The notes under the pieces were generated by a model. It had not been told where the DNA came from, searched no databases, and saw nothing but the letters and a program-made list of their open reading frames with translations. A DNA stretch of 64,000 bases. Source: a virus. The stretch covers positions 49,503 to 113,502 of the IMG/VR virus record IMGVR_UViG_3300050343_000122, one strand, 5' to 3'. Positions 1-63,528 of this stretch are shown here, piece by piece (positions within the stretch are counted from its first letter, which is position 1; each line of letters opens with the position of its first letter). The translations under genes were made by a program, and so were the position numbers.

Positions 1-73
1 AAGGACCTGTGTCTGCACCTGCAAAACTTAATGTTATTATTATTGTCATCTTTATCTACAATTTTTGATTTTA

Positions 74-1813: not shown

Positions 1814-1818
1814 ATGTC

Positions 1819-1929: not shown

Positions 1930-1931
1930 AA

Positions 1932-2498: not shown

Positions 2499-2509
2499 AA
2501 GAATTATTT

Positions 2510-2557
2510 AAAAAAAAATACCAGAGGATTGAGTATTTAATCCTCTCACCTCTGGTA
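2510..2557 (-). terminator. Rho-independent terminator of the head operon segment
   Basis: Read on the minus strand, a perfect 9-bp stem (TACCAGAGG with CCTCTGGTA) encloses a second possible stem (AGAGGATT with AATCCTCT) and is followed at once by a run of nine T. It lies between the stop of the 379-residue gene (2593) and the start of the 188-residue gene (2498), so it could stop or attenuate transcription into the last three genes. Confidence 0.75.
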
Positions 2558-2592
2558 TTATAGGTTAGTATTGTTTTATGTAACTCTGTCTA

Positions 2593-3732: not shown

Positions 3733-3760
3733 AATTTAATTTATATTTAAGGGTTAATAA

Positions 3761-4492: not shown

Positions 4493-4522
4493 ATTTAACT
4501 AGTTTTATAAAAAACTAGCTAC

Positions 4523-5491: not shown

Positions 5492-5536
5492 AATGTAGTT
5501 TAATTAATTATTCTTTTTGGTTTTATTTTACTTAGT

Positions 5537-5613
5537 AGAGTGATCCAATTGAATGGGTAGAAACTTAATTCGTCACTCTGATTGAGAAGCCTGTCCCCTC
5601 TGAGGAGGGACAG
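5537..5613. other. Inverted repeats downstream of the capsid gene
   Basis: Between the major capsid gene and the next gene there are two inverted repeats: AGAGTGA (5537-5543) with TCACTCT (5573-5579), and a strong GC-rich hairpin at 5591-5613 (CTGTCCC-C-TC with GAGGGACAG, three-base loop). No T run follows on either strand, so an RNA-stabilising or processing hairpin after the highly expressed capsid message is likelier than a standard terminator. The rest of 5492-5682 shows nothing else. Confidence 0.5.
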
Positions 5614-5682
5614 TGTGGGTGAGGGGACTACTTCTCTGTGAAGGGTGAGTATTACGCTAGCAATAATTCACCTATTCTGTTT

Positions 5683-7248: not shown

Positions 7249-7278
7249 TTTTATTTGTTTTTTATTATTAATTAAAAT

Positions 7279-23667: not shown

Positions 23668-24721
23668 ACTATTAAAAGAAGAGGTAGACAAGGGTCTGGC
23701 TGGTAGAAACGGTGGTATACCTATGGGATTCGACAGACTAAATAGGTATGTTGGTATCCGTAGGTCTATGTATTACTTAATAGGTGGACTAACCGGTTCA
23801 GGTAAGACTAGCTTTATCGATGATGCATTTGTACTGAACCCAGTAGACTGGGCCCTATCTAAAGAAGGACGTGAGTCTGGTATTAAGGTGAAGGTGTGGT
23901 ACAGATCTATGGAGCGTAGTCAGACATACAAACTAGCTAAGTGGACCTGCAGGAAGATCTTTCAAGAAGAAGGAGTTATCATTCCTGTTAACAAACTACT
24001 GGGCTGGACAAGCAAGATGACAAAGGATGAACATGACTTATTCCTTAAGTATGAGGACTATATGAATGAGCTTATGGAAATAGTTACTATTATAGATGGG
24101 CCAGAGAATCCGGTTGGTATTGCTAAAGAGCTAAAAGCTTATGCACTAGAACGTGGTGAGATAAAACAGTTAGATACATACAACAAGATATACGTTCCTA
24201 ATGATCCTAACGAGATAACACTAGTTGTGTTAGATCACATAGGTCTACTGAAGACTACCAGTGCACAGCCCACAAAGAAGCAGGCTATTGACAAGATGAG
24301 TGATGAGCTAAGATACGCTCGTGACTTCTATGGTTATTCACCAGTTGTTGTTAGTCAGTTCAACCGGTCTATATCTAATCCTATCAGGATAAAGAATGGT
24401 GATGTTGAGCCACAGATGGAAGACTTTGCTGATAGTTCTACAACACAGAATGACTCAGACATATGTATGGCCCTATTTGACCCTATGAGGTACAAGGTAG
24501 AAGATCCATCAGGCTATGACCTCAACAAACTGAAGGATGAGTTCGGTGGTAAATACTTTAGGAGTCTACGTGTAATAAAGAATAGCTATGGTGAAGATGA
24601 TATCAGGATTGGTCTTGGTTTCCTTGGCCAGATAGGTATGTTCAAAGAGTTACCTAGACGTAGAGATATAACAGAATCAGACTATCAGTCTGTAATTAAT
24701 AAATCATTCTTTTTATCATGA
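23657..24721 (+). CDS. DnaB-like replicative helicase, 354 aa
   Basis: RecA-fold ATPase with Walker A GGLTGSGKTSFI (about 44-55), Walker B LVVLDHIGLL (about 192-201) and a DnaB-type motif around VVVSQFNRSI (about 235-244), followed by an ENDSD-like segment STTQNDSDICMAL (about 262-274). It lacks the DnaB N-terminal primase-interaction domain, giving a short form seen in several phages. The ring helicase would unwind DNA ahead of PolB and work with the primase at 27896. Confidence 0.8.
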   Translation: MGFKLLKEEVDKGLAGRNGGIPMGFDRLNRYVGIRRSMYYLIGGLTGSGKTSFIDDAFVLNPVDWALSKEGRESGIKVKVWYRSMERSQTYKLAKWTCRKIFQEEGVIIPVNKLLGWTSKMTKDEHDLFLKYEDYMNELMEIVTIIDGPENPVGIAKELKAYALERGEIKQLDTYNKIYVPNDPNEITLVVLDHIGLLKTTSAQPTKKQAIDKMSDELRYARDFYGYSPVVVSQFNRSISNPIRIKNGDVEPQMEDFADSSTTQNDSDICMALFDPMRYKVEDPSGYDLNKLKDEFGGKYFRSLRVIKNSYGEDDIRIGLGFLGQIGMFKELPRRRDITESDYQSVINKSFFLS

Positions 24722-25161
24722 TAACAGGATTCACTGCAGGTAACTTTGACTTGCTACACCCAGGATACATATACACATTTGAAGAAGCTAAGAAGCATTG
24801 CGATAGATTCGTAGTGCTACTACAGCGTGATCCTTCATTGCATAGGAAATCAAAGTATAAACCTGTGCTGTCATTACACGAGCGTTACAAAGCCTTAATG
24901 GCTATACGTTACATTGATGAGGTGTATACATACCAGACAGAAGAGGAGCTTTATCATCTTATACAATGGCTTCAGCCTGATGTAAGAATACTAGGAGAAG
25001 ACTATGTATGGGAAGGAGAAAATGGTAAACCTAAAAGATTTACAGGAGATGACCTGAACATTAAAGTTATATATACTACTAGATCTCATGACTGGTCCAC
25101 TACTAAGATAAAGGATTTAATAACAGAACAAACTAATAAACAAAATGACAATAAGAGATAA
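24718..25161 (+). CDS. Cytidylyltransferase-like nucleotidyltransferase, 147 aa
   Basis: Nucleotidyltransferase fold of the TagD / HldE C-terminal type: GNFDLLHPGYIYTFEEAKK (residues 8-26, where the second His of HxGH is Tyr), basic strand KSKYKPVLSLHERYKALMAI and the end motif WSTTKIKDL (equivalent to ISTTxxxR). Family members activate phosphorylated sugars or alcohols with CTP or ATP; HldE makes ADP-heptose. Given the TibC-type heptosyltransferase at 52205, making an activated heptose-like sugar is an attractive but unproven role. The start overlaps the helicase stop. Confidence 0.75.
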   Translation: MITGFTAGNFDLLHPGYIYTFEEAKKHCDRFVVLLQRDPSLHRKSKYKPVLSLHERYKALMAIRYIDEVYTYQTEEELYHLIQWLQPDVRILGEDYVWEGENGKPKRFTGDDLNIKVIYTTRSHDWSTTKIKDLITEQTNKQNDNKR

Positions 25162-29679: not shown

Positions 29680-29900
29680 CAGTTAGAAACTATATAAATA
29701 CCCTCGTAGAGATGGTAAAGAAGAATCCAGAGATAGAGCACTATGAAGTGATATATTCTGCAGACGATGAAGGCAACACCTTTCAGAAGGTAAACTTTAC
29801 ACCAACAGTAATGATAGCTGATGGTCTAGATAACGCCTATATAGAAGTTGAGTCAATAATGAATGTTGACGAAAATGCTAATGTTTTATGTATTAACTGA
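29676..29900 (+). CDS. Hypothetical protein, 74 aa
   Basis: A small acidic alpha/beta protein (MTVRNYINTLVEMVKKNPEIE at the N-terminus, which resembles small phage or host domain proteins that open with a helix and a Tyr/Val strand). Its stop shares one base with the epimerase start. No firm function. Confidence 0.5.
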   Translation: MTVRNYINTLVEMVKKNPEIEHYEVIYSADDEGNTFQKVNFTPTVMIADGLDNAYIEVESIMNVDENANVLCIN

Positions 29901-30772
29901 TGAGAGCACTTGTAACAGGAGGAGCAGGTTTCATAGGAGGTCACGTAGTTAGAGACCTACTAGATAGAGGCCATGAGGTTATTATATTAGACAATTTCTC
30001 TACCGGTAGTATAGCTAATGTTGCTACCGGTATAGAATCCTTACACGTTTATACAATAGGGAGTGATGATCCATTTCCTGATTGTTTAAACTTTGACACA
30101 CTTATACATTTAGCAGCACCTGTGTCTGTTGAAGAGAGTATTAAAGAGCCAGTTAAGTACTATAACGAAATAGCATATGGAACAGAAAAACTATTTAAGT
30201 GGGCTACAGATTGTGGGTGTGACAAGTTTGTAGTGGCCTCAACTGCTGCAGTGTATGGTAGTACTGACAATGTACCTATTAAAGAGGAAGCTAATATATA
30301 TCCTGAGTCACCTTACGCATCAGCTAAAGCACTTATGGAATTAATGATAAGTGGTTCTTACAAAGCTGACGTAGCAATACTTAGGTTCTTTAATGTGTAT
30401 GGTGAAGGCCAAAGAAGCACTGGTGGATATTTATCAGCTATACCTATATTCAAAAAACAATATGAAAGTGGTAAATCTATAACAGTTACAGGAGATGGCG
30501 AACAAAGCAGAGACTTTGTTTATGTTGGTGATGTAGTATCAGCAATCTTTGCAGCTATTGGTAGTAACGGTACATGGAATATTGCTTCTGGTATAGAGGT
30601 TAAGATAATAAATATAGCAAAGGCTTTTGGTGATGATATAAAATTTATCAAAGCTAGAAGAGAAGTTAAAAGGTCATTAGCTAGCATAGAATCTGCTAAG
30701 TACTGGCTTAATTGGAAACCAAAAACAAAACTAGGAAACTGGATAAAATCAATAAAAGATGAATTGGGATAA
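29900..30772 (+). CDS. NAD-dependent sugar-nucleotide epimerase/dehydratase
   Basis: A short-chain dehydrogenase of the extended (GalE/HldD/RmlB) type, 290 residues: Rossmann motif VTGGAGFIGGHV (about 4-15), LDNFSTG (about 30-36), catalytic Ser/Thr strand VVASTAAVYG and the Tyr-x3-Lys pair in YASAKALMEL (about 139-148), then FFNVYGEGQRS. Substrate cannot be told from sequence; UDP-sugars or an ADP-heptose-like sugar are possible. With the nucleotidyltransferase at 24718 and several glycosyltransferases it could supply donor sugar for glycosylation of virion proteins. It is slightly shorter than bacterial relatives (about 310-340). Confidence 0.85.
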   Translation: MRALVTGGAGFIGGHVVRDLLDRGHEVIILDNFSTGSIANVATGIESLHVYTIGSDDPFPDCLNFDTLIHLAAPVSVEESIKEPVKYYNEIAYGTEKLFKWATDCGCDKFVVASTAAVYGSTDNVPIKEEANIYPESPYASAKALMELMISGSYKADVAILRFFNVYGEGQRSTGGYLSAIPIFKKQYESGKSITVTGDGEQSRDFVYVGDVVSAIFAAIGSNGTWNIASGIEVKIINIAKAFGDDIKFIKARREVKRSLASIESAKYWLNWKPKTKLGNWIKSIKDELG

Positions 30773-43331: not shown

Positions 43332-43624
43332 GTAAGAAACCATATAAAAGACTCTTAGGTAATCGTGTATATGTACACGTACCTGAAAGAAAGAAAAGTA
43401 AACTTGAAGTAGATGCTAACACTAAAGAAGCTCTACAGAGAGAAATGTTAAAAAAGATGTCTAAGCTTTTAGTTTATGATGTCGGAGATTTAGTAACACA
43501 TTTCAAACCAGGAGATGAGGTCTTAGTAGATCCAGGTAAATTAAAAGATGCACACTTGATACCTCTTACCGATGATCAAGAAGTTTTACTCTTATCTCCA
43601 TTTGATGTAATACATGTTTGGTAA
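43328..43624 (+). CDS. GroES-like co-chaperonin
   Basis: A 98-residue beta-barrel protein in the style of GroES / T4 gp31: LLGNRVYVHVPERKKSKLEV at the N-terminus, a mobile-loop-sized insertion (about 27-50), then VGDLVTHFKPGDEVLVDPG (the conserved VGDxVxxxGxxVxv pattern) and a C-terminal strand VLLLSPFDVIHVW. It would cap host GroEL, probably to fold the capsid protein. The stop shares bases with the next ATG (TAATG). Confidence 0.78.
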   Translation: MSKKPYKRLLGNRVYVHVPERKKSKLEVDANTKEALQREMLKKMSKLLVYDVGDLVTHFKPGDEVLVDPGKLKDAHLIPLTDDQEVLLLSPFDVIHVW

Positions 43625-44421
43625 TGGCTTACGATATAATATCAGGAACAGAAGCAGCTTATGTCATAGAAGACAACGATCTGCCTTTCATTTCCTGCAA
43701 GTGTATAACTTACGGAAGAACAGATTTATTAGTAGAAGCCTTACATAGCTTCCTTATTCAGGACTATCCAAAAGATAAGTGTGAACTAGTAATAGTTAAT
43801 GACTATCCTCTTCAAAAGTTACACTACTCTCACCCACAAGTAAAGATATACAATCTTGATACCACATTTCCTCTAATAGGAGAGAAAGAGAACTATGCTA
43901 TTGAAAGATGTCAAGGTCCTCTCATTGCTGTTTGGGATGATGATGATGTGGCCTTACCTAATCACCTCAACAATATAGCTAGACACTGGAAGGATGATAC
44001 TAATATTATTCACTGGAGAACAGGTATATACTATAACGAACCATCTATCACTTCTATAAGTGGTGTAGGTAACTCCGGTATTGTGTATAGTAAAGATGTA
44101 TGGGAAAGAATAGGTAAGAGTCCATTAGAAAATGCTGGTGGTGACATGACATTAACTGGAAAGATACACAAGTTAGGTGGTGTAGTAGAAGCTATATTAC
44201 CAGACAGTGAAGCTTCGTGGTTTTATATGTGGGGAGGTAGAGGTTATCATCAATCCGGTATGGGTACAGATGATGGATCAAGACCTGATATCATTAAACG
44301 TCACAGTGCTCATGTAGAATCACAGCGTAAAGCTGGTAAAGTACCTACAGGTGATATACATTTAGTGCCTGCATGGAAACAGGATTATAAACAAATGTTA
44401 AAAGACTATCTTAAAAAATGA
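43624..44421 (+). CDS. GT2-family glycosyltransferase, 265 aa
   Basis: I use the ATG at 43624 (TAATG overlap) rather than an upstream TTG. GT-A fold of family 2: PFISCKCITYGRTDLLVEAL (about 17-36), then IVNDYP, and the metal-binding acidic cluster IAVWDDDDVALPNHL (about 100-114). The acceptor side has a GGDMTLTGKIHKLGG segment (about 175-189). No membrane helices, so it is cytosolic. With the next two genes it forms a glycosylation cluster in the middle region, acting on virion proteins, phage DNA or host glycan; the target is not shown. Confidence 0.75.
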   Translation: MAYDIISGTEAAYVIEDNDLPFISCKCITYGRTDLLVEALHSFLIQDYPKDKCELVIVNDYPLQKLHYSHPQVKIYNLDTTFPLIGEKENYAIERCQGPLIAVWDDDDVALPNHLNNIARHWKDDTNIIHWRTGIYYNEPSITSISGVGNSGIVYSKDVWERIGKSPLENAGGDMTLTGKIHKLGGVVEAILPDSEASWFYMWGGRGYHQSGMGTDDGSRPDIIKRHSAHVESQRKAGKVPTGDIHLVPAWKQDYKQMLKDYLKK

Positions 44422-45071
44422 AGGTTTTAGTAACAAGTGCAAATTTTCCAGGCCAATTATGGAGTAAATGGATAGATCAGCAATCTTCTAAGTACGAGAT
44501 AGTATTTAATAGAATAGATGAGACCACACACTCTGCTAGAGAGTTAGCAATGCATCCTAGATTACGTGCTAAGATTCCTAAAATGTTAGCATGGGAAGAC
44601 AACCCAGGGTATGATTACTATATATGGATGGACTCTAATCAGTCACTAACCTCTCCTAAAGCTATTGAGAAGATGGTAGATCAATGTATAGGTAATGATG
44701 CATGTTTCTTTAAACACTCAGGTAGGTCCTCTGTACAACAAGAGGTTACATTTGTTTTAGAACAGATGCTAAAGGAAGATGAGTACTTACTGGATAGATA
44801 TAAAGGAGAATTAATGGCAGAACAGTTAAGTCATTATCTTCAGGATGAGAAGTGGAATGACAATCTTCTTATAGAGTGTACTGTTTTTATATACTCTAAA
44901 AATATTGTAAAGAATAGAGAGTATAATTTAATGAAAGAGTGGTTTTATCATAATTGTATATGGTCAGTTCAAGATCAAATAAGTCTACCGTACTTACTTA
45001 ATAGGTTCAGGACTAAATATAAGATCTGGGATCAAAATGTATGGAGTAATGATTACACCTACTATAGTTAA
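44418..45071 (+). CDS. GT-A-like glycosyltransferase, TOD1/MUCI70-type, 217 aa
   Basis: Starts KVLVTSANFPGQLWSKW. Contains ARELAMHPRLRAKIPKML (about 39-56) and DYYIWMDSNQSLTS (about 72-85), where the Asp-Ser-Asn replaces the DxD metal motif. This pattern recalls TOD1/MUCI70-like (DUF616) transferases. It overlaps the GT2 gene by 4 bases and precedes a DUF6165-type gene, so the three probably act together. Target unknown. Confidence 0.6.
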   Translation: MKVLVTSANFPGQLWSKWIDQQSSKYEIVFNRIDETTHSARELAMHPRLRAKIPKMLAWEDNPGYDYYIWMDSNQSLTSPKAIEKMVDQCIGNDACFFKHSGRSSVQQEVTFVLEQMLKEDEYLLDRYKGELMAEQLSHYLQDEKWNDNLLIECTVFIYSKNIVKNREYNLMKEWFYHNCIWSVQDQISLPYLLNRFRTKYKIWDQNVWSNDYTYYS

Positions 45072-50315: not shown

Positions 50316-50559
50316 ATTCCTTTTCTTTGATGGTTTGTATTTCTTTCACTACAACAGCATCAGCTGTGTTCAGAGAATCTATTTTCTTCTGGAGCTTTCT
50401 GTCCTTCTCTTTATAGATTTCAATCTGATTTTCTATCTTCTCTAGTTTTAACTTATAAAGTTCAACTTCTTTTGAAGATTCATAACTTGTCCATAACAGA
50501 ACAAGAATTATAAAAATGCCAAACCATTGGTTTCTTATAAAATTTATCACTTGCATCAT
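50227..50559 (-). CDS. Inner-membrane coiled-coil protein (Rz-like i-spanin), 110 aa
   Basis: One N-terminal membrane helix (WFGIFIILVLLWTSY, about 12-26) and a periplasmic coiled coil (LYKLKLEKIENQIEIYKEK and following). It directly follows the lysin gene (4-base overlap) and is overlapped by the secreted 154-residue gene. Topology, size and place fit an i-spanin, which with an outer partner fuses the inner and outer membranes at lysis. Confidence 0.65.
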   Translation of the reverse strand: MMQVINFIRNQWFGIFIILVLLWTSYESSKEVELYKLKLEKIENQIEIYKEKDRKLQKKIDSLNTADAVVVKEIQTIKEKEYVQIKVVDSMPISELQEFFTDRYPSRSTE

Positions 50560-51164
50560 ACGATATCGTTTGATTCTAGTAAGGTGTATGAAAACTTATT
50601 ACCCCATATATCCGCAGCTTTCTTGCAGATACCTAGGAATTCGTTCCAGTCTTCGTTAGAAGCAATCACTTGACACCCTGCAGACCATTTGTCTACACGC
50701 CAAGATCTACCACCTTTTTTAGCTGTAGCCCTGTGTATGTTTATACCGAACATTCCTTCGTGTACATGTTCTTCTGTAAGATCATACACGTGGTCTTTGT
50801 TCTTGTCTCTATACACCTTAACAGGGGCTCTTTGACATAGAGCATCATATTTACCTTGATGCTTGTTAATCTTGTATGCACCTCTGTATTGCCCAGGCTT
50901 GAGCACAGCTACACCTTTTTCATTAAGAAGGTTGGCCATCCAATGTGTACCTGGATCTGTTGTACTTTTATAACAGTGCATCTTCCATTCACCTTCTTCT
51001 TTATAAGAGATGGTGATGCAATCATCAAAAGCATTTGTCACTCTGTTCTTTGTTGCAGAGTTTCTTACGCCTACAATATTCACATCATAATCACCACCAT
51101 CGAAATACTTGTATCCGCAGGTAATCATTGCATCTTCTATTTGTTGTCTGGTGTAACAAGACAT
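50556..51164 (-). CDS. Endolysin candidate of L,D-transpeptidase (YkuD-like) fold
   Basis: A 202-residue protein without signal peptide. The catalytic pattern is His144 in FGINIHRA, 16 residues, then Ser161-Ala-Gly-Cys164-Gln, equivalent to H-x(14-17)-[S/T]-x-G-C of L,D-transpeptidase/carboxypeptidase domains. The usual Arg/Asn after Cys is Gln-Val. The N-terminal part (about 1-110) is a separate domain with VLKPGQYRGAYKINKHQG. It lies between the holin-like and spanin-like genes, so cell-wall cleavage at lysis is the likely job. Confidence 0.7.
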   Translation of the reverse strand: MSCYTRQQIEDAMITCGYKYFDGGDYDVNIVGVRNSATKNRVTNAFDDCITISYKEEGEWKMHCYKSTTDPGTHWMANLLNEKGVAVLKPGQYRGAYKINKHQGKYDALCQRAPVKVYRDKNKDHVYDLTEEHVHEGMFGINIHRATAKKGGRSWRVDKWSAGCQVIASNEDWNEFLGICKKAADIWGNKFSYTLLESNDIV

Positions 51165-52204: not shown

Positions 52205-55200
52205 ATGCCACATAGTTACGACTTCTTTAAACAACAAGTAAAGGATTGGATCATACAACATGTTCCTAAACATAAAAGAATTCTAGATGTTGGACCTGGT
52301 ATAGGTACATATTCTAAACTAATTAGAGATCATGGATACAGAATCGATGCTGTAGAAATCTTTGCACCATATATAGAAAAGTATGACTTGATCAGTCAGT
52401 ATGATAATGTATTTGTAGGTGATATCTGTAAGTTTGACTTCAAAGATTATGACTTTATTATCTTAGGAGATGTTCTAGAACACTTACATGTAGAAGACGC
52501 TGTTGATCTATACAATAGGATGATAGAACAAGATAAAGAAGTATTAGTTGCGGTACCATGGGAAATGGAACAGGGTGAACATGAAGGTAATATTTATGAA
52601 ACACACCATCAAACAGATCTTACTCCACCGGTATTAAGAAGCAGATATCCAAAATTGAAACTATTATTTAAGAATGAATATTATGGTTACTATTATAAAT
52701 TAAATCGTAAGTGGGAAAAAGCATATGTGCTCTATGCAAATTCTGCATACTACGATACAGTATGTGCAGCTGTTAAATCAATTAAAGCTTTTAGTAACAT
52801 ACCGATAATCGTTTACTTACTAAATGATGAAAGAACTGTACCAGGTGCTATTGTAGAGAATTGGAAGCATGAGGAGTTAAGTGTAGAACAAAGTGAGTAC
52901 ATAGATAGAAACAACAGTGATATATATAAGTTACTTATACAAAGACCATCTATAGTTAAGCACGCACTAAACAAGTACGCAAAGACAATAGCATATATTG
53001 ATTCAGACAGTGTAGTAACTTCATATATAGATAACATATTTAACTACATGCCTGAAGATTCTTCTTATCCCTATTTTACAAAAGGTATATATGACTACCT
53101 GTTTATAAATGGTAGAGGTGGTGTAGAAACTAGAGAGGAGTTACATAAAAGTTTAGAACATCCAGCTTGTGAATTATTTGGTGTAGACCAGTCTGTTCGA
53201 TCGAAATATCATCAAACAGGATTTTTTACAGCAGGACAATCATGTTTTGATTTCCTTGATGAGTGGGAGTGGATGTGTAACCATCCTAAGGTTTTAAGTA
53301 ATCCACAGTACTATGCTCCTTACCATGAAGAAACTATAGCTAACGTTCTTTTGTGGAAGAATGATGTACATGAGGGTTTACCTTATATGTATATAAACTA
53401 CACAGGACATATAGATGTTGATGACTTACCTTTTACTGGTGAGGATAATTATTTATCAGAGTGGGTGAGATTACCTAAGGTTAAAGAAGAACTACTTGTA
53501 CTACATGGAGAGAAGAGACCTGAGTACATGTTAGAGGTTCTAAACTCTAGAAAGAAAAAGATATTATTTTTAGCTCCACACCTGTCTACAGGAGGTATGC
53601 CTGCATTCTTACTTAAGAGAATAGTTGCATTGAAAGAAACCTATGAAATATATGTAGTGGAGTTTCAGAATTATAGTAATGAGTATGTAGTTCAGAAGAA
53701 CAAAATAAAAGAGCTGGCAGATCACTTCTATACATTAGAAGAAGATAAGCACGAACTAATGAGAATCATTAGAGGGAATCGTATTGATTTAGTACACATA
53801 GATGAAATGTCTGAACACATGGGTGATGACACTGTAATAAAGGACTTATATTGTAACTGTAGATCTTGGAGAATAATAGAAACATGTCACAACATATCAT
53901 TTAAACCAGAAGAAAAAGTTTATAATCCTGATGCTTATGCATTTTGCACACCTTATCATATGTCTACATTTAAAGATACTCCAACACCTATTAAAAAGGT
54001 ATTGGAATTTCCTATAGATGAGTTGTCTGCAAATAAACTAAGTGCTATGACACAGCTAGGTTTAGATCCTATCAAGAAGCATGTGGTTAATATAGGGTTA
54101 TGGACACGTGGTAAAAACCAAGGAGAAGGTGTAGAGTTAGCTAGACAGTTACCAGGAGTACATTTTCACTTTGTTGGTAATCAAGCTGTTAACTTTAAAG
54201 ACTATTGGGAACCAATCATGGAAGATATTCCTAACAATGTATTTGTTCACGGTGAAAGAAATGATACACACTTATGGTTAGAAGCAGCTGATGTTTTTAT
54301 GTTCAATTCTACATGGGAGTGCAACCCTCTTGTACTTAGAGAGGCTATTAGTTATGGGCTACCTATACTTGCTAGGAACTTACCGCAGTATGAAGACATG
54401 TTCACTTCGTATATCACTGATTTAGATCCTATTAAAATGAAAGATCAGTTAAAGACTTTATTAAAAGATGCGTGTAATTACATTGTACCTACCGACAATA
54501 CATTACAAGACTTTGCCTCTAATCATGTTGAACTGTATACAGAAACATTAAGTACACCTAAATTTAAAAACTCTTCTCCATCAGATTTTACTATCTATCG
54601 TGACTTTGCTCTAGGACCCTATATAGATATACGAGGAAATAGCAAAAGTGAATTCAAAGTGGAAATATATGATGAGGAGAAACTGGTATATAACAGTGTA
54701 CTGGGAGTAAATAACTGGTGCAAACTTGACAAAAGCTACTATGTTAATTGGAGAACTTCAATATATAAAGATGATCTACTTATATTAGATGACAAGTTAA
54801 ATCTAGAAGGACGAAGAGTTTATATTGCATTTGAAAGTTCTTCTCTCGGAGATACAATTGCATGGATTCCTTATGCTTTAGAGTTTCAAAAGAAACACAA
54901 CTGTAATGTAGTAGTTAGTACATTTAAAAACTTTTTATTTGAAGATGTGTATCCTGAGCTTGAGTTTATAAAACCTGGAGAAAGTCCTGGAGATATCTAT
55001 GCTAGGTATAACATAGGCTGGTTCTATGATTCTAATAAAGAACCTGTTCTTCCTAATACAATACCTCTGCAACAAGCTGCATCTAATATATTAGGATTGG
55101 AGTATGAAGAAATTGTGCCGAGAATAAAAAAAGATTTTGGGAACCCTTGTGGAATGAAAGATAATTATCAAGTTCCAGGAAAGTATGTAACTATAGCTAC

Positions 55201-55654
55201 TAACTCTACAGCTGGTTGTAAATTTTGGACTAGAGAAGGATGGCAGGAAGTTATAGACTTTCTCTACTCTCAAGGATATAAAGTAATTAATACATCTATA
55301 GAAGATAACCCTTTCAATAATTGTGAGAAAATAGTAGACACTAATATAGAGTATACAATTGATTGTATAAGACAGAGTGAGTTCTTTATAGGACTATCTA
55401 GTGGGCTTAGTTGGTTAGCGTGGGCTTTAGGTAAACCTGTTGTAATGATATCAAACTTTACAGAAGCTAATCATGAGTTTTCATGTATACGAGTAACAAA
55501 TACCAATGTCTGCCATGGTTGTTGGAACGATCCACAATACACATTTGATAAAGGTGATTGGAATTGGTGTCCTGTACACAAGGGTACTGATAGACAATTT
55601 GAATGTCACAAATCTATTACTCCAAAAGATGTTATAAATGTATTACCTGTTTAA
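52205..55654 (+). CDS. Methyltransferase + two glycosyltransferase domains + TibC/AAH-type O-heptosyltransferase fusion
   Basis: A 1149-residue cytosolic enzyme of four domains. (1) Residues 1-150: SAM methyltransferase, RILDVGPGIGTYSKLI and ILGDVLEHLH. (2) About 170-440: GT-A domain with YVLYANSAYYD and IAYIDSDSV (DxD, about 264). (3) About 448-780: GT4-type GT-B domain, ILFLAPHLSTGGMP, GLWTRGKNQGEG and the nucleotide-sugar motif WECNPLVLREA (about 702). (4) About 785-1149: TibC/AAH-like transferase, SLGDTIAW (about 878), GLSSGLSWLAWALGKPV and the iron-finger cysteines CHGCWND, DWNWCPVHKG and FECHKSI (about 1102-1135). Bacterial relatives of (4) add heptose to Ser/Thr repeats of autotransporters. 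The stop overlaps that of the convergent GTS-repeat fibre gene, a likely acceptor. Acceptor and donor sugar are inference. Confidence 0.85.
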   Translation: MPHSYDFFKQQVKDWIIQHVPKHKRILDVGPGIGTYSKLIRDHGYRIDAVEIFAPYIEKYDLISQYDNVFVGDICKFDFKDYDFIILGDVLEHLHVEDAVDLYNRMIEQDKEVLVAVPWEMEQGEHEGNIYETHHQTDLTPPVLRSRYPKLKLLFKNEYYGYYYKLNRKWEKAYVLYANSAYYDTVCAAVKSIKAFSNIPIIVYLLNDERTVPGAIVENWKHEELSVEQSEYIDRNNSDIYKLLIQRPSIVKHALNKYAKTIAYIDSDSVVTSYIDNIFNYMPEDSSYPYFTKGIYDYLFINGRGGVETREELHKSLEHPACELFGVDQSVRSKYHQTGFFTAGQSCFDFLDEWEWMCNHPKVLSNPQYYAPYHEETIANVLLWKNDVHEGLPYMYINYTGHIDVDDLPFTGEDNYLSEWVRLPKVKEELLVLHGEKRPEYMLEVLNSRKKKILFLAPHLSTGGMPAFLLKRIVALKETYEIYVVEFQNYSNEYVVQKNKIKELADHFYTLEEDKHELMRIIRGNRIDLVHIDEMSEHMGDDTVIKDLYCNCRSWRIIETCHNISFKPEEKVYNPDAYAFCTPYHMSTFKDTPTPIKKVLEFPIDELSANKLSAMTQLGLDPIKKHVVNIGLWTRGKNQGEGVELARQLPGVHFHFVGNQAVNFKDYWEPIMEDIPNNVFVHGERNDTHLWLEAADVFMFNSTWECNPLVLREAISYGLPILARNLPQYEDMFTSYITDLDPIKMKDQLKTLLKDACNYIVPTDNTLQDFASNHVELYTETLSTPKFKNSSPSDFTIYRDFALGPYIDIRGNSKSEFKVEIYDEEKLVYNSVLGVNNWCKLDKSYYVNWRTSIYKDDLLILDDKLNLEGRRVYIAFESSSLGDTIAWIPYALEFQKKHNCNVVVSTFKNFLFEDVYPELEFIKPGESPGDIYARYNIGWFYDSNKEPVLPNTIPLQQAASNILGLEYEEIVPRIKKDFGNPCGMKDNYQVPGKYVTIATNSTAGCKFWTREGWQEVIDFLYSQGYKVINTSIEDNPFNNCEKIVDTNIEYTIDCIRQSEFFIGLSSGLSWLAWALGKPVVMISNFTEANHEFSCIRVTNTNVCHGCWNDPQYTFDKGDWNWCPVHKGTDRQFECHKSITPKDVINVLPV

Positions 55655-58600
55655 GTATAAAAACAAGGAATAGCTCTAGATGTCTTTATATCATTAGTAA
55701 ACGTGGCTGTATAAGAACCGTCTTTTGTATACTCAAAGTTTTGCCCAGATCTTCTAAATCTATATGTACCTGTTGATAAATTAGCAGGTGAAGTAAGTGA
55801 AGTGTTACTATATAACTGAGTTACATATTTAGGCATCCACTCTTTAGCATATACTGTTGTAGGCATAGCAGATCCACAACCTGCTCCAACAAGAGAAATT
55901 TTATATTCATAGAATGCTGCAGTAGGTGCTGCATCATCAGTGTCTAGACCAAAGACATCATTAGTTGTCTGTGGAGTAGTACATGATGAATAGGCAAGAA
56001 TAGGCCCATACAATGCACCCATTGTTATTCTATATTCTCCTGGATTATCAAATATAAAATATTGAGTTCCAATTTGGCCAGTTCCTGTAGGGAAATTTGC
56101 TGCATTAAATACACGAAGTAATCCATTACCACTAGTGTTTTCTGATGTCATACCACCGTAAACAGCATTCCATGTAGCTCCTGGTCTACATATGTCTCCA
56201 AAAATATCTACAGCTCTATTCCAATTTTGAGTATTGTTTGCTCTATACATTACAGCACAGTTTTGATCTATGTACTGTTGAGCACCTCCTGTTTGTCCTT
56301 TCTCCATACTAAATGCAACATAGAAAGATCCTTGGGTTAGTCTTCCTACACCTGAATCTTGAAGTAATTCTCTACCAAATGTAAACTGCTGATATTGATT
56401 AGGTGGGTTGTTAACTGTACATTTTAAATCAGATCTAGAACCATTATCAGATGTAGTTAAAGAACTTCCATATATATAAGCATTAGGTATACCATAATTA
56501 TTAGCCCCATCTAGATTTGTTAAAGAGTCTGCAAAGTATATTCTTTGTCCATCTCCATCAAAGTTACCATTACTACTATATGTAAATCTTGTACCTGGAC
56601 TTGGATTTAAAACTGTCGTACTAGTGGTTGTAGTTGTAGGATCAGGACACTCAGTAATTCTTATCTTCATATCACCATTATCGTGATATAATCCATATAA
56701 TGGTATCCCAGCTTGAGCAGCTGCACAGTCATTAGCATAGTTATGATGTTCACCAACTTCAGGTAATATAACACAACTCTCTACATTTGATACTGCACCC
56801 ACATTTGGAATTCCTCCTATGGTTCCTCTCTTTGTAACAATGATAGCATTTCTTCGAGCATTAGCAAAGTTACCATAACCTGCACCTAACATAAATGTAG
56901 CAGGCATATAGTTAGAAGTATAGTTTACATTATCTCTATCATTATATGAGCCTACTAAAACTATATCAGATGATGTAGTAGTAGTATCGGAAGCTCCTTG
57001 TGTACTGTTCGGATTTACTTTTAGGTTTCTTCCTATTCCGACTGATTCCGATTTAAAAATATCTATAAGTCTTCCTAGTCCTCCGGAATTGGAAACCGCT
57101 GAAGAAGTGGTGGCTCCTATAACAACATCTCTACCAATTGCAAAATTATTATTACTACTAGAATTTGAAATCTCATTACTTGTTCCTGAAGTTATATGAT
57201 TAGTTCCTTGTATGCTATTACTGGTACCTACTACTAGAGATCTAGTGGTTGTAGAATTCACAGTATTGGTTCTTCCTGATATAATAGTCTCGCTAGCACC
57301 TCCAGTATTTCCATATCCACTAATTATATTATGTGAACCACCAACTGCGTTGTTGTAACCTCCAATAATATTACCAGCGTTGTTGAGTGATGCAGTTGTG
57401 GTTGTTTTATTTAGTTCTCCTACTACTAAACTATTATTTACATTTAGTCCTCCCCAACCACCAGCAGAAGTTCTACCATTTCTTCTTCCTCCAATGATAT
57501 TATTAATTCCATTTATAAAGTAGAAGTTAGTTCCCACCCCTGGAACGATCTCATCTAAAGCATGTAAATCTCCTACCACTAAACTATGTTCCATGTTTAT
57601 GTTGGACTCGTTTGATGATATTATATTATAATCTGAATATATAGTTACTCCAGAATTTTCTGTATCACCTACGAAGTTCTTGAACCCATTGATGATTCCA
57701 CCTTCCATACCAGTTCCAAGACCCACAAAGTTTTGTCTACCTCCGACTGTAACATAGCTTACATCTCCATTAATACCGTTGTCTCTACCACCTATAAGGT
57801 TAGCAAATCCCATTGCAGTAGTATTAGAGGCACCAAAGTCATTACCGTATCCATAAATAAGAGTACCGTAACTATTAGAATTACTACCACTCTTTTTAAT
57901 AGTGTTATTAAATCCTCCAATACTAACAGTGTTAACATTTGATATGACGTTACCAGCACCCCACATTATATTGTTATTACCGTCTAATTTGTTATTACTA
58001 CCACTAACAAGAGCATTAGCTGCATCTCCATCTGTTGTATGAGCAATTCCTCCAATCATAGATCTTACGATCTTATGAGTTATAATGTTGTTTTGTCCTG
58101 ATAGAACAGTATTTATAATTGTACCAGTGTTAGGACTTGTTTTATTAACAGTGTTGGTTGTACCCACTACAAGTGAGGCTGTGTTTACAAAGTTAGTTTG
58201 TGTACCATTTACCTCATTACCTTGTCCTACAACAAGCATTTTATCTCCTGTAAGATTGTTGTTAAATCCAACAATACCTAAGTTACTTGATGTTGCATCT
58301 CCTACTACATTTTCACTACCACAGATCAATGCTGATCCGTCATACGTTGTAGCATATATATTAGATACATATGTAGTTGAATCTTCGTAAGGAGACACTT
58401 CAAGTCTTGGTGTAATTCGCGTTACGTAATGTGTACCGTTACCTGGTTGTGTGATTCTTATACCCTCTGTTATATATGTAAAGTTAGTAGTAGTATAAGT
58501 TGCACCTATCTTTATTATATCATTATCTAAAACTTCTAATGCAAAATTAGTGTTAGTTAAAGCAGATGCTTGATCAGGGTACAAATAACTTTCACCGACT

Positions 58601-61600
58601 ACATGTAATCTATAGTTAGGAATCTTTGTACCTACACCTAAATAACTATTGTCATTATCCCACCAGTGATTATTATTTCCAGCTATTACTGTTGTTACAG
58701 CATCATCATCACCAGTCCAGAATGCAACTTGTCCATCTGCAATACCAGAACCAGAAACTTGAAGGGCAGGAGTAGAGCCAGATGTACCATCAGCACCACT
58801 TGAGCCACTTGAACCACTTGAACCAGATGTACCAGAGGTACCTGATGTACCAGAGGTACCAGAAGTTCCTGAAGTTCCGTTATTTGTAAATATAAATGCA
58901 CACAGATCACCATCTACAATCACCCCACTACTGTTGTTTTCAGATGCAGTGGTAGTACAACTAAGAATCCTTGTATTGAGACCATAAGGACTATTACCAG
59001 TAACATTAAGTGTTATAAACTCTTCTACATCTGCAAGGTTTGTAATTCTTAATTGTGCATCTCCTCCTGCACTTTGAATATCTTCCAGTAGGTTAAGAAT
59101 AGTTGCTCCATTTGAATCTGTCGTACTAACAGTTAAATATGTTATATTACCAGCTAGACTATTGCTTGATCCTAATTGAAACTCACCTGAAGCTTGACTA
59201 TTTGGTGAACCTGTAATGTATCCATCAAACTCTGAAGTAAATAAGAAACCGGTAGATATACCTGAGGTACCAGGACTACCTGGACTACCACTATTACCAG
59301 AGGTTCCACTACTACCAGAGGTTCCACTTGTACCAGATGTACCACTTGTACCGCTCGTACCAGATGTTCCTGTTGTACCGCTAGTACCAGACGTACCATC
59401 ATTACCAGAAGAACCACTTGTTCCTGAAGTTCCATCTATCCCAGTAGTACCACTACTACCAGAGGTACCGGACGTACCAGATGTGCCATCATCACCACTG
59501 GATCCAGATGTACCTGACGTTCCAGTATTACCTGAAGTTCCTGACGTTCCAGTTGTTCCTGATGTACCACTTGTACCATCGTCACCAGAACTACCTGATG
59601 TACCAGCTGTTCCTGATGTACCAGTGGTACCACTCGTTCCGCTTGTTCCATTTTCTCCATCTTCTCCTGAAGTTCCACTTGTACCTGACGATCCAGCTGT
59701 TCCACTTGTACCACTAGTACCACTATCTCCACTGCTACCAGATGTTCCTGAGGTTCCATCTTCACCAGTTGTACCAGAGGTACCACTAGTTCCACTTGTA
59801 CCATCATCACCACTCGTGCCTGATGTTCCATCATCACCACTAGTACCTGACGTACCGGTTGTTCCTGAAGAGCCACTACTTCCAGCTGTACCAGAAGAGC
59901 CACTACTTCCATCACCACCAGAGCTTCCACTTGTTCCACTTGTACCTGATGAGCCACTTTCTCCACTAGTTCCAGAAGTTCCACTGGTACCACTTGTACC
60001 AGATGTACCATCTTCACCTGTTGTTCCGCTAGTTCCTGATGTTCCAGTTGTTCCAGAACTTCCACTAGTTCCGGATGTACCAGAGGTACCAGTTTCTCCA
60101 CTTGTTCCACTGGTTCCAGATGTACCTGATGTACCACTCGATCCACTATTACCAGAGCTTCCTGAAGTACCAGAGGTTCCGGATGTACCAGAACTACCGT
60201 CAACACCAGGATCTCCTTTATCACCTGTAGTTGCAAAGCACATCAATACATCATCACCATTGCTAAATATTACTCCTGTTCCTTGTGATGATGCTACAGC
60301 ACTTATATTTATTGTCCACCAACCAGAATTATTAGTTAAATCTGATATAGCAAATAATATAAAGTCAGCAGTGTTGAATTTTTCTGATATTCTAACATGT
60401 CCTTTTACAGCTGAAGTTGAACTGTCAATTGCTTGTAAGAAGGAATTAATAGAGTCTCCATTATCATCTAAGACGTCTATATACATAGCACTAGCACCTG
60501 CTTGGTCTTGGTTATTACTTAACCTTACCTTACCTGTTCCTGGATCACTAGAGCCAGTTGAGATATCAAATGTATAGTCAAAACATGCACCACCAAAGTT
60601 ACCATCTGAACCAGATGTACCTGCACTACCAGAACTACCTGACGTTCCAGATGTTCCACTACTACCACTGTCTCCACTAGAACCACTAGTTCCAGATGTA
60701 CCGCTGGTTCCTGAACTACCAGAGTCTCCTGAAGATCCACTACTTCCTGATGTACCACTTGTACCTGAGCTTCCACTGTTTCCACTAGATCCGCTAGATC
60801 CACTTGTACCGTCTATACCACTTGTACCTGTAGTTCCTGCAGTACCACTAGTCCCTGAAGTACCATCCTCTCCACTAGAGCCACTACTTCCTGCAGTACC
60901 ACTACTTCCACTTGTACCATCTTCTCCGCTAGAACCACTTGTTCCAGATGTTCCACTAGTTCCGTCTATACCACTAGACCCTGAAGTACCTGTTGTTCCA
61001 GATGTACCACTAGTTCCATCTTCACCGGTTGTTCCTGATGTTCCTGATGATCCACTAGTTCCACTAGTTCCATTTTCTCCATCAGTTCCTGAACTACCAC
61101 TAGTACCGGATGTTCCACTAGTACCACTAGTTGCACTGGTTCCTGAAGTTCCTGTTGTACCTGATGTTCCATTACTACCATCTTCACCACTTGTTCCACT
61201 TGTACCGGTAGTACCGCTAGTTCCTGATGTACCATCTTCTCCAGATGTTCCACTCGTGCCACTTGTAGCAGATGTTCCAGAGGTACCACTGCTTCCGTCT
61301 GCTGCAGATGTACCAGAGCTACCTGAACTTCCGGATGTACCAGAAGTTCCAGAGGTACCAGATGTTCCACTGCTACCAGAACATAATCCATTAATCCCTA
61401 CAGATCCACTAGCGTCAAATCTAGGTAAATCTTTAGAACACACATCGATTGCATTTCCTTCGGATATAGTAATAGATTGAGATACGTTTGCACAGTCTGT
61501 ATATGATGCATCACAATCACCTCCACCATTTGGACATGATAGGTTATAGCTTATACAGCTACCACCAGATGAACCGGAAGTACCACTTGTACCACCTGAT

Positions 61601-63528
61601 CCACTAGTACCACTAGTGCCAGAGGTACCAGAAGTAGCAGATGTACCTGATGTTCCATCAATAGCTGATGTTCCACTAGTTCCAGAAGTTGCGGATGTAC
61701 CAGATGTACCAGAGGTTCCAGTAGTACCGGACGTTCCTGTAGTACCTGATGTTGATCCTACAGACACTCCCACTTGTACTGTATTAAATACTACGGAAGG
61801 TGCAGCAGGTGCTGGGTAAGGAGCAGTTTTACTTGCAAGGGCATCTATTTGAACTGTTGGATTATCAGATGCAAAGTATAGTTCTAAATAATCTTGCTCT
61901 TCTAACTCTACTATATAAGATATGTATGGACTGTTAATCGCATCTTGGTGATGTATAGAATGTACTCTATCCTTTCTTATAAAATCTGTACCGTTCTTTC
62001 TTAACCATATGTCAACACTAGTGTGACCTCCACCACCTTGAGAACCTGTTCGCTCAAATTGTATAGAGTATCCCACTTCATATATACCAGCATGTGGATA
62101 TCTTACCTGCTGATTGAAGTCTAAAATAATACCATTAGAAAGTTCTGTAGTACTGAACGTTACTGCTGTTGGTACATTTGTACCATTAACTGGTTGTATT
62201 GTATTATCTGAAAAACTAGCATACCAGTTTGCTATTGCAGCACCAGATGATCCATCTATACCGCTTGTTCCTGCAGAGCCTGATGTACCTGTTGTACCTG
62301 ATGTCCCTGTTGTACCAGCTGTACCAGAACTACCGCTTGTTCCAGAAGTACCTGGTGTACCACTAGTACCTGTTGTTCCACTGGTACCAGATGTTCCACT
62401 TGTTCCTCGTGTTCCAGATGTCCCACTTGTTCCTGTAGTTCCACTGGTTCCTGTACTACCTGAGCTTCCAGAAGTTCCAGATGTGCCACTTGATCCAGTG
62501 TCACCACTTGATCCACTAGTTCCTGTTGTACCAGATGTCCCAGCTGTGCCAGAACTACCAGATGTACCAGTCGTACCACTTGTCCCAGTCGTACCACTTG
62601 TACCACTTGTGCCTGTTGTACCACTTGTGCCAGATGTACCTGTTGTTCCACTAGTACCGCTGGTACCAGAAGATCCATCTCCACCAGTTGCTCCATCAAG
62701 ATTGATACACCATGAAGTATATGTACCAGATCCTACTACCTTAAAAGGTGGGGTGAAACATAACTGTCCTGTTACTGGATCATAGGATACTACATCGCAT
62801 TCTTGGTAATTATTTACATCATGAGCAATAACAATAGATTGACCTGCAGTGTATGCAAGTCCAGTGTCTACAGTTAAACATTCATTAATAGTATTACCTA
62901 AAGTAAATGATGTTCCTGTAATACATGTTTTATACTTATCTCCTTGATCTCCAGACGTTCCACTAGTTCCAGACGTTGCACTAGTTCCACTAGAGCCTGA
63001 TGTACCACTCGTACCAGTTGTACCACTTGTACCGGTGGTCCCTGAAGTTCCAGATGTGCCACTAGTACCTGATGTGCCACTAGTACCTGATGTACCAGAA
63101 GTACCAACCGAACCAGATGAACCGGATGAACCACTAGTTCCACTTGTTCCACTTGTCCCAGTGGTACCAGATGTACCTGTAGTTCCTGAAGTTCCAGCAG
63201 TTGCTGAGGTACCGGAAGTACCTGTTGTTCCTGAGGTACCAGATGTACCACTAGTGCCGGAAGTCCCAGCTGTTCCAGATGTAGCAGAAGTACCAGATGA
63301 TCCTGATGTGCCTGAAGTACCGGAAGTACCTGATGTACCACTGGTACCATCAAGTCCAGCTCCAGAACATAGAAGTTTATCTATATTCTTAAGAGCGTCT
63401 TCTACAGTCATATTTGTTCTGACTCCAGAGCATACTAAATTTGGCCCCTCATAAAATACACAAGCTGCACTTAGTGTAATAGGGCAAGGATCAGCTGCAC
63501 AAACTAGGTTGTTACTACTTTTACTCAT
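55651..63528 (-). CDS. Giant collagen-like (Gly-Thr-Ser)n fibre protein, 2625 aa
   Basis: A virion fibre candidate. A Cys-rich N-terminus (about 1-57: ACVFYEGPNLVCSG then VEDALKNIDKLL) resembles the 131-residue neighbour. Long G-x-y triplet tracts follow, mostly GTS, GTT, GSS, with GED, GID or GDKGDPG interruptions. They alternate with globular inserts at about 193-276, 433-593 (C1q/TNF-like jelly roll: VDIWLRKNGTDF), 656-716, 976-1099 and 1426-1553. About 1583-2276 is a repeat-rich NN-x-I-x-G region like a YadA-type beta-roll, preceded by YLGVGTKIPNYRLHV. Near 2295 a poly-Thr linker joins a C-terminal domain. No S74 chaperone end. Gly-Thr/Ser triplets lack Pro; glycosylated Thr may stabilise them. 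Confidence 0.8.
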   Translation of the reverse strand: MSKSSNNLVCAADPCPITLSAACVFYEGPNLVCSGVRTNMTVEDALKNIDKLLCSGAGLDGTSGTSGTSGTSGTSGSSGTSATSGTAGTSGTSGTSGTSGTTGTSGTSATAGTSGTTGTSGTTGTSGTSGTSGSSGSSGSVGTSGTSGTSGTSGTSGTSGTSGTTGTSGTTGTSGTSGSSGTSATSGTSGTSGDQGDKYKTCITGTSFTLGNTINECLTVDTGLAYTAGQSIVIAHDVNNYQECDVVSYDPVTGQLCFTPPFKVVGSGTYTSWCINLDGATGGDGSSGTSGTSGTTGTSGTSGTTGTSGTSGTTGTSGTTGTSGSSGTAGTSGTTGTSGSSGDTGSSGTSGTSGSSGSTGTSGTTGTSGTSGTRGTSGTSGTSGTTGTSGTPGTSGTSGSSGTAGTTGTSGTTGTSGSAGTSGIDGSSGAAIANWYASFSDNTIQPVNGTNVPTAVTFSTTELSNGIILDFNQQVRYPHAGIYEVGYSIQFERTGSQGGGGHTSVDIWLRKNGTDFIRKDRVHSIHHQDAINSPYISYIVELEEQDYLELYFASDNPTVQIDALASKTAPYPAPAAPSVVFNTVQVGVSVGSTSGTTGTSGTTGTSGTSGTSATSGTSGTSAIDGTSGTSATSGTSGTSGTSGSGGTSGTSGSSGGSCISYNLSCPNGGGDCDASYTDCANVSQSITISEGNAIDVCSKDLPRFDASGSVGINGLCSGSSGTSGTSGTSGTSGSSGSSGTSAADGSSGTSGTSATSGTSGTSGEDGTSGTSGTTGTSGTSGEDGSNGTSGTTGTSGTSATSGTSGTSGTSGSSGTDGENGTSGTSGSSGTSGTTGEDGTSGTSGTTGTSGSSGIDGTSGTSGTSGSSGEDGTSGSSGTAGSSGSSGEDGTSGTSGTAGTTGTSGIDGTSGSSGSSGNSGSSGTSGTSGSSGSSGDSGSSGTSGTSGTSGSSGDSGSSGTSGTSGSSGSAGTSGSDGNFGGACFDYTFDISTGSSDPGTGKVRLSNNQDQAGASAMYIDVLDDNGDSINSFLQAIDSSTSAVKGHVRISEKFNTADFILFAISDLTNNSGWWTINISAVASSQGTGVIFSNGDDVLMCFATTGDKGDPGVDGSSGTSGTSGTSGSSGNSGSSGTSGTSGTSGTSGETGTSGTSGTSGSSGTTGTSGTSGTTGEDGTSGTSGTSGTSGTSGESGSSGTSGTSGSSGGDGSSGSSGTAGSSGSSGTTGTSGTSGDDGTSGTSGDDGTSGTSGTSGTTGEDGTSGTSGSSGDSGTSGTSGTAGSSGTSGTSGEDGENGTSGTSGTTGTSGTAGTSGSSGDDGTSGTSGTTGTSGTSGNTGTSGTSGSSGDDGTSGTSGTSGSSGTTGIDGTSGTSGSSGNDGTSGTSGTTGTSGTSGTSGTSGTSGTSGSSGTSGNSGSPGSPGTSGISTGFLFTSEFDGYITGSPNSQASGEFQLGSSNSLAGNITYLTVSTTDSNGATILNLLEDIQSAGGDAQLRITNLADVEEFITLNVTGNSPYGLNTRILSCTTTASENNSSGVIVDGDLCAFIFTNNGTSGTSGTSGTSGTSGTSGSSGSSGSSGADGTSGSTPALQVSGSGIADGQVAFWTGDDDAVTTVIAGNNNHWWDNDNSYLGVGTKIPNYRLHVVGESYLYPDQASALTNTNFALEVLDNDIIKIGATYTTTNFTYITEGIRITQPGNGTHYVTRITPRLEVSPYEDSTTYVSNIYATTYDGSALICGSENVVGDATSSNLGIVGFNNNLTGDKMLVVGQGNEVNGTQTNFVNTASLVVGTTNTVNKTSPNTGTIINTVLSGQNNIITHKIVRSMIGGIAHTTDGDAANALVSGSNNKLDGNNNIMWGAGNVISNVNTVSIGGFNNTIKKSGSNSNSYGTLIYGYGNDFGASNTTAMGFANLIGGRDNGINGDVSYVTVGGRQNFVGLGTGMEGGIINGFKNFVGDTENSGVTIYSDYNIISSNESNINMEHSLVVGDLHALDEIVPGVGTNFYFINGINNIIGGRRNGRTSAGGWGGLNVNNSLVVGELNKTTTTASLNNAGNIIGGYNNAVGGSHNIISGYGNTGGASETIISGRTNTVNSTTTRSLVVGTSNSIQGTNHITSGTSNEISNSSSNNNFAIGRDVVIGATTSSAVSNSGGLGRLIDIFKSESVGIGRNLKVNPNSTQGASDTTTTSSDIVLVGSYNDRDNVNYTSNYMPATFMLGAGYGNFANARRNAIIVTKRGTIGGIPNVGAVSNVESCVILPEVGEHHNYANDCAAAQAGIPLYGLYHDNGDMKIRITECPDPTTTTTSTTVLNPSPGTRFTYSSNGNFDGDGQRIYFADSLTNLDGANNYGIPNAYIYGSSLTTSDNGSRSDLKCTVNNPPNQYQQFTFGRELLQDSGVGRLTQGSFYVAFSMEKGQTGGAQQYIDQNCAVMYRANNTQNWNRAVDIFGDICRPGATWNAVYGGMTSENTSGNGLLRVFNAANFPTGTGQIGTQYFIFDNPGEYRITMGALYGPILAYSSCTTPQTTNDVFGLDTDDAAPTAAFYEYKISLVGAGCGSAMPTTVYAKEWMPKYVTQLYSNTSLTSPANLSTGTYRFRRSGQNFEYTKDGSYTATFTNDIKTSRAIPCFYT
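58790..63360 (-). repeat. DNA tracts coding for Gly-Thr-Ser triplets
   Basis: Within the giant gene, several tracts (about 62945-63350, 62240-62695, 61563-61755, 60605-61385, 59255-60235 and 58790-58880) consist of nine-base units coding for Gly-x-y, with Gly, Thr and Ser codons varied between units. Sequence similarity between units makes recombination or assembly collapse possible, so the true length may differ. The opposite strand is open over long stretches only because of this codon periodicity. Confidence 0.8.

Follow-up and report, generated by a model that had tools for sequence, protein, structure and literature searches.

The DNA analyzed here, a window of 64,000 nucleotides (bases 49503 to 113502 of the 113,502-base viral record IMGVR_UViG_3300050343_000122), carries two convergent genes, one for a four-domain glycan-assembly enzyme that ends in a TibC-type O-glycosyltransferase domain and one for a giant collagen-like fiber. 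Our data make it likely that this enzyme serves the phage as its own assembly line for protein O-glycosylation and that the collagen-like fiber is its substrate. This reading draws on the domain identities, the conserved active-site and iron-finger residues, the fold, and the collagen repeat, and on the co-occurrence of enzyme and fiber in viral records and their joint absence from close relatives. A preliminary description, made from the letters of the sequence, had proposed a tail-to-tail pair with overlapping stops, and both open reading frames are present as proposed (Table 1). The enzyme ends in a TAA at 55652 to 55654 on the plus strand and the fiber in a TAA at 55651 to 55653 on the minus strand, with 4 bp, TTAA, making up the overlap.

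A TibC-type fusion enzyme and a collagen-like fiber

The TibC/AAH pattern previously noticed in the C-terminal part of the enzyme was confirmed by profile search and structure prediction. NCBIfam model TIGR04414 (hepto_Aah_TibC) matched residues 797 to 1146 with 279.5 bits, against an equivalog cut-off of 200, and residues 822 to 1146 aligned with TibC (4rap) at an E value of 2.3e-54 and 38% identity across 315 aligned residues; Pfam GT9 matched residues 958 to 1089. An AlphaFold2 model of the domain (predicted local distance difference test [pLDDT] score, 88.8) had TibC as its best PDB match in Foldseek (4rap; E, 2.5e-32; template modeling [TM] score, 0.89) and is predicted to contain the BAHT fold, an N-terminal beta-barrel followed by a GT-B catalytic domain. 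With the reference residues of TibC taken as defined in PMC4358343, the catalytic Asp110 corresponds to D883, the phosphate contacts Thr226 and Lys230 to T1002 and K1006, and the heptose contact Trp305 to W1070, while C1103, C1106, C1122, and C1134 would form the Fe-Cys4 iron finger. All 64 enzyme-anchored phage relatives retain every one of these residues. The position of Pro300, the stereo-determinant of TibC, is occupied by Ser, as in AAH.

The four-domain composition in the preliminary description was likewise recovered, with Pfam matches for the methyltransferase and GT4 domains and a fold model for the GT-A domain. Methyltransf_23/11 matched residues 1 to 107 (34.0 and 28.0 bits, both above the Pfam cut-off), and GT4 matched residues 625 to 755 (PF00534, 42.5 bits; PF13692, 39.6 bits). 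When the GT-A domain was folded with 15 relatives in AlphaFold2 (pLDDT, 88.3), the best solved PDB folds in Foldseek were the blood-group GT6 transferases, GT8 enzymes (LgtC and glycogenin), and UGGT, with E values of ~3e-7 to 1e-5; the Asp pair of its DxD motif is invariant across the aligned relatives.

Classified by window-derived domains, the enzymes had the architectures GT-A-GT4-TibC (33), GT4-TibC (23), all four domains (18), TibC alone or a fragment (5), and TibC-GT4-TibC (2). Within this set, GT-A always occurred with GT4, and the methyltransferase always occurred with GT-A. Such nesting would fit a glycan built in steps, but common descent by itself could yield the same pattern. Farther relatives carry an FkbM methyltransferase, a DXD sugar transferase, a polysaccharide pyruvyl transferase, or an extra GT9 as N-terminal modules, and some place the methyltransferase elsewhere (L455). 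Since the N-terminal modules among relatives are all glycan acting, the multistep glycan suggested earlier is plausible. In one locus (L457), the TibC fusion enzyme at positions 1187 to 5314 contains a splicing domain that resembles an intein and matches LAGLIDADG.

The fiber matched Pfam Collagen with 378 bits over 14 stretches and PHROG tail fiber family 5073 with an E value of 9e-102, the latter match being mostly repeat driven. Its length agrees with the preliminary description, but the claim that it consists largely of Gly-Thr-Ser (GTS) and Gly-Thr-Thr (GTT) triplets is an overstatement: strict Gly-X-Y runs of at least four triplets comprise 897 residues, ~35% of the protein, whereas none of 200 shuffled versions of its sequence had more than 39. 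Among the 299 Gly-X-Y triplets are 161 GTS, 50 GSS, and 29 GTT. Thr occupies 67% of the X positions and Ser 73% of the Y positions, the reverse of an earlier suggestion that Thr is in the Y position, and Pro is found in 4 of the 598 X/Y positions. Mixed synonymous codons encode Gly, Thr, and Ser along the repeat, which indicates that it is maintained as protein sequence and is not a recent DNA microsatellite. Long Pro-Val-rich frames on the plus strand (59216 to 60577 and 62114 to 62785) run antisense to GTS tracts and very probably do not represent genes.

Co-occurrence and joint absence of enzyme and fiber

A scan of viral contigs yielded 223 related stretches, from which 79 loci were kept, 48 of them nonredundant. 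At 28 of these 48 loci, a Gly-X-Y open reading frame lay in the flank, convergent with the enzyme in 27 and codirectional in 1. The spacing between enzyme and fiber at convergent loci ranged from a 13-bp overlap to ~5 kb; in other lineages, the two genes stand side by side on one strand. Co-occurrence of enzyme and fiber, set beforehand as a test capable of refuting the proposal, was found throughout the longer records: among 36 enzyme-bearing records of at least 60 kb, eight of which are near-identical, collagen was clear in ~34, weak in one (G162), and absent from one (G158). A random set of 48 viral records, biased by length, contained no TIGR04414 domain and had collagen in 3, which amounts to 3 of 10 among those of at least 60 kb. 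Moreover, 14 of 48 records chosen by a Gly-Thr-Ser DNA motif contained TIGR04414, compared to 0 of 48 random records (Fisher P = 4e-5).

Enzyme and fiber occur together in crAss-like phages, jumbo phages, and a Microcystis phage. Matches to the crAss-like terminase family phrog_6681 were strong in 17 of 40 enzyme-bearing records; the others were jumbo phages of 280 to 326 kb with a weak match or had none. In an annotated phage collection, the TibC domain was present in 4 of 50,697 records, one of which is an isolate, Microcystis phage Mel-JY01. Its 1,226-amino-acid enzyme (4750 to 8430), annotated as "methyltransferase FkbM," is 1.7 kb from a 1,016-amino-acid GTS open reading frame. In the deposited record (L087; PP395634.1), this fiber frame (2 to 3052) is unannotated and runs off the record start, and the depositors annotated antisense frames over it, e.g., 739 to 2298 on the minus strand. 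Elsewhere, the crAss-like terminase frame (100794 to 102719) of record G187, which is behind locus L049, contains one in-frame TAG, perhaps reflecting stop-codon recoding, as known in crAss-like phages.

The window genome has crAss-like head genes. Its terminase shares 41% identity with that of Leptolyngbya phage Lbo-JY46 and ~32% with those of Cellulophaga phages phi17:2 and phi4:1, and human-gut crAss-like phages are more distant by this protein. We used the window terminase to find records of at least 97 kb. All nine that carry the enzyme have 6 to 31 collagen matches, while the four without it have 0, 0, 1, and 2. A gene-by-gene reading of three of these four showed them to be collinear with the window, with a major head protein 89 to 91% identical, and to contain neither the enzyme nor a long Gly-X-Y fiber. 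In the enzyme-less relative G092, the fiber N-terminal anchor is kept on a repeat-free protein of 567 amino acids. Furthermore, all three collinear relatives keep the separate GT2 gene of the window, indicating that the absence is not general to glycosyltransferases.

Proposed glycosylation of the fiber and its alternatives

From these data we infer the substrate, the acceptor residue, the order of steps, and the benefit as follows. The TibC domain would start the glycan, with heptose or a different nucleotide-activated sugar, on many Ser residues of the Gly-Thr-Ser repeats at the Y position, which is exposed in a triple helix. TibC modifies Ser and not Thr, and the same is reported for AAH (PMC4358343); since Ser is the Y residue here, it is a likelier acceptor than the Y-position Thr considered in the preliminary description. 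Because modification precedes trimerization in collagen biosynthesis (PMC8968730), the enzyme would act in the infected cell on unwound chains, before they assemble into a trimer. Further sugars would be added by the GT4 domain and next by the GT-A domain, the methyltransferase may cap the glycan, and the sugared, proline-free collagen rod would then join the tail apparatus. There, the sugars would probably make the triple helix more stable and better hydrated or would shield the fiber. A Pro-free helix should be weak, and the sugar may stabilize it; in BclA, glycosylation is thought to aid helix hydration (PMC8968730).

Several points weigh against this reading. Many GTS fibers occur without TibC, and mostly also without GT4 or GT2; the link between enzyme and fiber is thus one-way, and the sugar is not needed for every GTS fiber. 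Two enzyme-bearing records, G158 (84 kb, possibly incomplete) and LR756504 (636 kb), lack collagen, and another acceptor is possible in both. The co-occurrence statistics ignore shared ancestry. Within the TibC domain, Arg286, whose contact with adenine is needed in TibC (PMC4358343), corresponds to T1051 and is Thr in 55 of 64 relatives, an assignment that depends on the alignment within the loop. In addition, the region of the beta-hairpin thumb (Phe265/Val266 in TibC), which joins TibC dimers into the active dodecamer (PMC4358343), is ~10 residues shorter; the thumb is absent in 64 of 64 relatives, and the model has no hairpin. Activity and donor could therefore differ from those of TibC, and the donor may be other than ADP-heptose, as these two changes suggest. 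AAH itself takes both heptose epimers (PMC4358343). Thus, for the glycan that the preliminary description started with heptose, the TibC assignment holds and the ADP-heptose donor is in doubt. Its broader proposal, that the phage encodes its own O-glycosylation of repeat fibers, gains from TibC identity and co-occurrence but does not extend to a need for glycosylation in GTS fibers generally.

Three further ideas were set aside. A phage-encoded heptose supply is not essential, as the HldE-like adenylyltransferase is missing from several enzyme-bearing relatives; in the window, the best model for this protein is TIGR02199 with 68 bits, under the cut-off of 181.5, and it is nearly as close to glycerol-3-phosphate cytidylyltransferase. 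Its gene (24718 to 25161) and that of an NAD-dependent sugar epimerase (29900 to 30772) lie amid replication genes, and neither matched anything in the three enzyme-less relatives that were gone through gene by gene. The idea that GTS fibers lacking the enzyme generally pair with other glycosyltransferases was rejected, with GT4/GT2 found in few records and in no clear excess. Lastly, GTS-tract composition with and without the enzyme showed small differences, which were not used, as the enzyme-less set was picked by the GTS motif and is hence biased.

Species genomes were scanned with search patterns from an alignment of the phage domains (80 loci), and a tree of phage and chromosomal TibC domains was built without the thumb columns. 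The thumb-bearing chromosomal homologues and TibC itself formed one supported clade. None of 33 thumb-bearing chromosomal homologues had a Gly-X-Y neighbor at the locus, versus 46 of 66 others (P = 1e-12, with kinship and fragmentation ignored). Loci L447 to L449, L467, and L468, which are collagen linked and outside the window's clade, retain Arg286, and their loop is as long as the thumb but differs from it in sequence; thumb loss therefore marks the window's clade and not every collagen-linked member. More tentatively, the thumbless TibC branch in tailed phages, including crAss-like and jumbo phages, could represent single-polypeptide assembly lines that glycosylate Pro-free collagen fibers, perhaps with a non-ADP-heptose donor, the sugars replacing hydroxyproline as the triple-helix stabilizer.

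An alternative that we consider unlikely is that the enzyme glycosylates a virion protein but that the acceptor lies outside the Gly-X-Y tracts, elsewhere in the fiber or in a different structural protein. Such an acceptor would fit the known TibC acceptors, which are Ser residues in beta-helical passengers, the G/N/S repeats in which the fiber C-terminal part is rich, and the situation in G158 (locus L060), where no collagen was found and proteins of 1,101 and 831 amino acids with 30% Ser plus Thr and no Pfam match stand beside the enzyme as a possible other acceptor. However, the Gly-X-Y tracts are the sole common part of the partner fibers and occur in nearly all enzyme-linked loci, whereas the C-terminal region recurs in just one or two others; the beta-rich C-terminal domain was accordingly rejected as a common substrate. 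Autotransporter-like neighbors, moreover, belong to the chromosomal thumb-bearing TibC homologues and not to the window's clade.

Slightly less probable still is that the enzyme alters host surface glycans (lipopolysaccharide or capsule) against superinfection, the usual assumption for phage glycosyltransferases near tail fibers. The same reading has been published for pelagimyophage glycosyltransferases in host-recognition clusters (PMC7029224), and GT4, GT-A, FkbM, and pyruvyl-transferase modules are also found in polysaccharide pathways. Nonetheless, the constant module belongs to a protein O-glycosyltransferase family with an iron finger, enzyme and Gly-X-Y fiber are absent together while the separate GT2 stays, and chromosomal relatives often lie beside large Ser/Thr/Asn/Gly-rich genes, like autotransporter-modifying enzymes. 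Least probable is a link merely via a shared variable host-recognition region or one clade's ancestry, with no functional tie: the near-constant convergent order in the close clade, as expected of inherited gene order, and the common occurrence of GTS fibers without the enzyme agree with it, but unrelated phage types carry the pair in differing gene orders, collagen is present in almost all enzyme-bearing records, far above random, and the two genes are jointly missing in collinear relatives.

Other features of the region and comparison with known systems

The coordinates of the pair and its parts are listed in Table 1. Two further glycosyltransferase genes, for a GT2 and a TOD1/MUCI70-like protein, lie in tandem at 43618 to 45071; this GT2 persists in the relatives devoid of the TibC enzyme and fiber. 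A frame at 50556 to 51164 on the minus strand weakly matches L,D-transpeptidase (YkuD; E, 0.07), carries an SAGC motif, and is a possible lysis or wall enzyme. In a promoter and terminator scan of the region, the number of sites was not above that in shuffles.

Table 1. Features of the enzyme-fiber pair, in window coordinates
Feature	Position	Strand	Basis
Four-domain glycan-assembly enzyme, 1149 amino acids (methyltransferase, GT-A, GT4, TibC-type O-glycosyltransferase)	52205..55654	+	Open reading frame, profiles, alignments, models
S-adenosylmethionine methyltransferase domain, N-terminal, residues 1-168	52205..52708	+	Methyltransf_23/11
GT-A glycosyltransferase domain, ~residues 169-442, invariant DxD (IDSDS)	52709..53530	+	Alignment, AlphaFold2, Foldseek
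GT4 (GT-B) glycosyltransferase domain, ~residues 443-790	53531..54574	+	Pfam
TibC-type O-glycosyltransferase domain, residues 797-1149	54593..55651	+	TIGR04414, 4rap alignment, AlphaFold2/Foldseek
TTAA common to both convergent TAA stops	55651..55654	.	Sequence
Giant collagen-like fiber gene, 2625 amino acids	55651..63528	-	Open reading frame, Pfam, PHROG, Gly-X-Y run count
Fiber N-terminal anchor, residues 1-57	63358..63528	-	Comparison with relative G092
Gly-X-Y block 1, residues 58-198	62935..63357	-	Gly-X-Y run count
Gly-X-Y block 2, residues 285-431	62236..62676	-	Gly-X-Y run count
Short Gly-X-Y block, residues 595-612	61693..61746	-	Gly-X-Y run count
Gly-X-Y block 3, residues 718-978	60595..61377	-	Gly-X-Y run count
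Gly-X-Y block 4, residues 1102-1425	59254..60225	-	Gly-X-Y run count
Short Gly-X-Y block, residues 1551-1586	58771..58878	-	Gly-X-Y run count
Nonrepetitive fiber C-terminal part, residues 1587-2625, in just one or two relatives	55654..58770	-	Comparison of partner fibers

The phage domain resembles TibC and AAH (BAHT family, TIGR04414, PDB 4RAP/4RB4) in fold, catalytic Asp, phosphate contacts, heptose-contact Trp, and Fe-Cys4 finger. BAHTs partner autotransporters, and the usual genomic partner of the phage enzyme is likewise a Ser-rich repeat protein. In contrast to TibC and AAH, the phage domain is the C-terminal module of a multienzyme fusion, occurs in a phage, has the thumb deleted and Arg286 replaced by Thr, and neighbors a collagen-like tail fiber rather than a beta-helical autotransporter. 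The mycobacteriophage system of Freeman et al. (2023) reportedly uses phage-encoded glycosyltransferases, and to our knowledge mycobacteriophage glycosylation involves neither a TibC domain nor a collagen repeat. According to the account of that work given in PMC12619734, its glycans are carried by phage virion proteins, as in the reading favored here, and sit at the C termini of capsid and tail-tube subunits, unlike the fiber tracts that we propose.

O-glycosylated collagen-like repeats outside animals, as proposed here, are represented by BclA of Bacillus spores and by the hydroxylated, glycosylated mimivirus collagen (PMC8968730). The enzymes of both differ from the phage enzyme, and neither protein is a fiber of a bacterial virus. 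BclA repeats contain Pro, and mimivirus collagen has hydroxylysine. Collagen-like tail fibers of phages and prophages (PHROG families; PMC3368898) contain Gly-X-Y rods, as does the window fiber; compared with these, the window repeats are nearly Pro-free Gly-Thr-Ser, with a dedicated glycosyltransferase adjoining.

Our literature search found no paper on TibC-family enzymes in phages or with collagen-like substrates, and searches of the available library on Mel-JY01, Lbo-JY46, phage BAHT, and Gly-Thr-Ser phage fibers returned nothing. TibC-family enzymes have so far been known from bacterial adhesins. If the proposed glycosylation of the fiber is correct, many uncultured phages would build glycosylated collagen fibers with their own enzyme, glycosyltransferases usually filed as host-surface modifiers would gain a function, and glycosylated collagen would have a bacterial, proline-free route. 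As an isolate, Microcystis phage Mel-JY01 opens the pair to direct testing.
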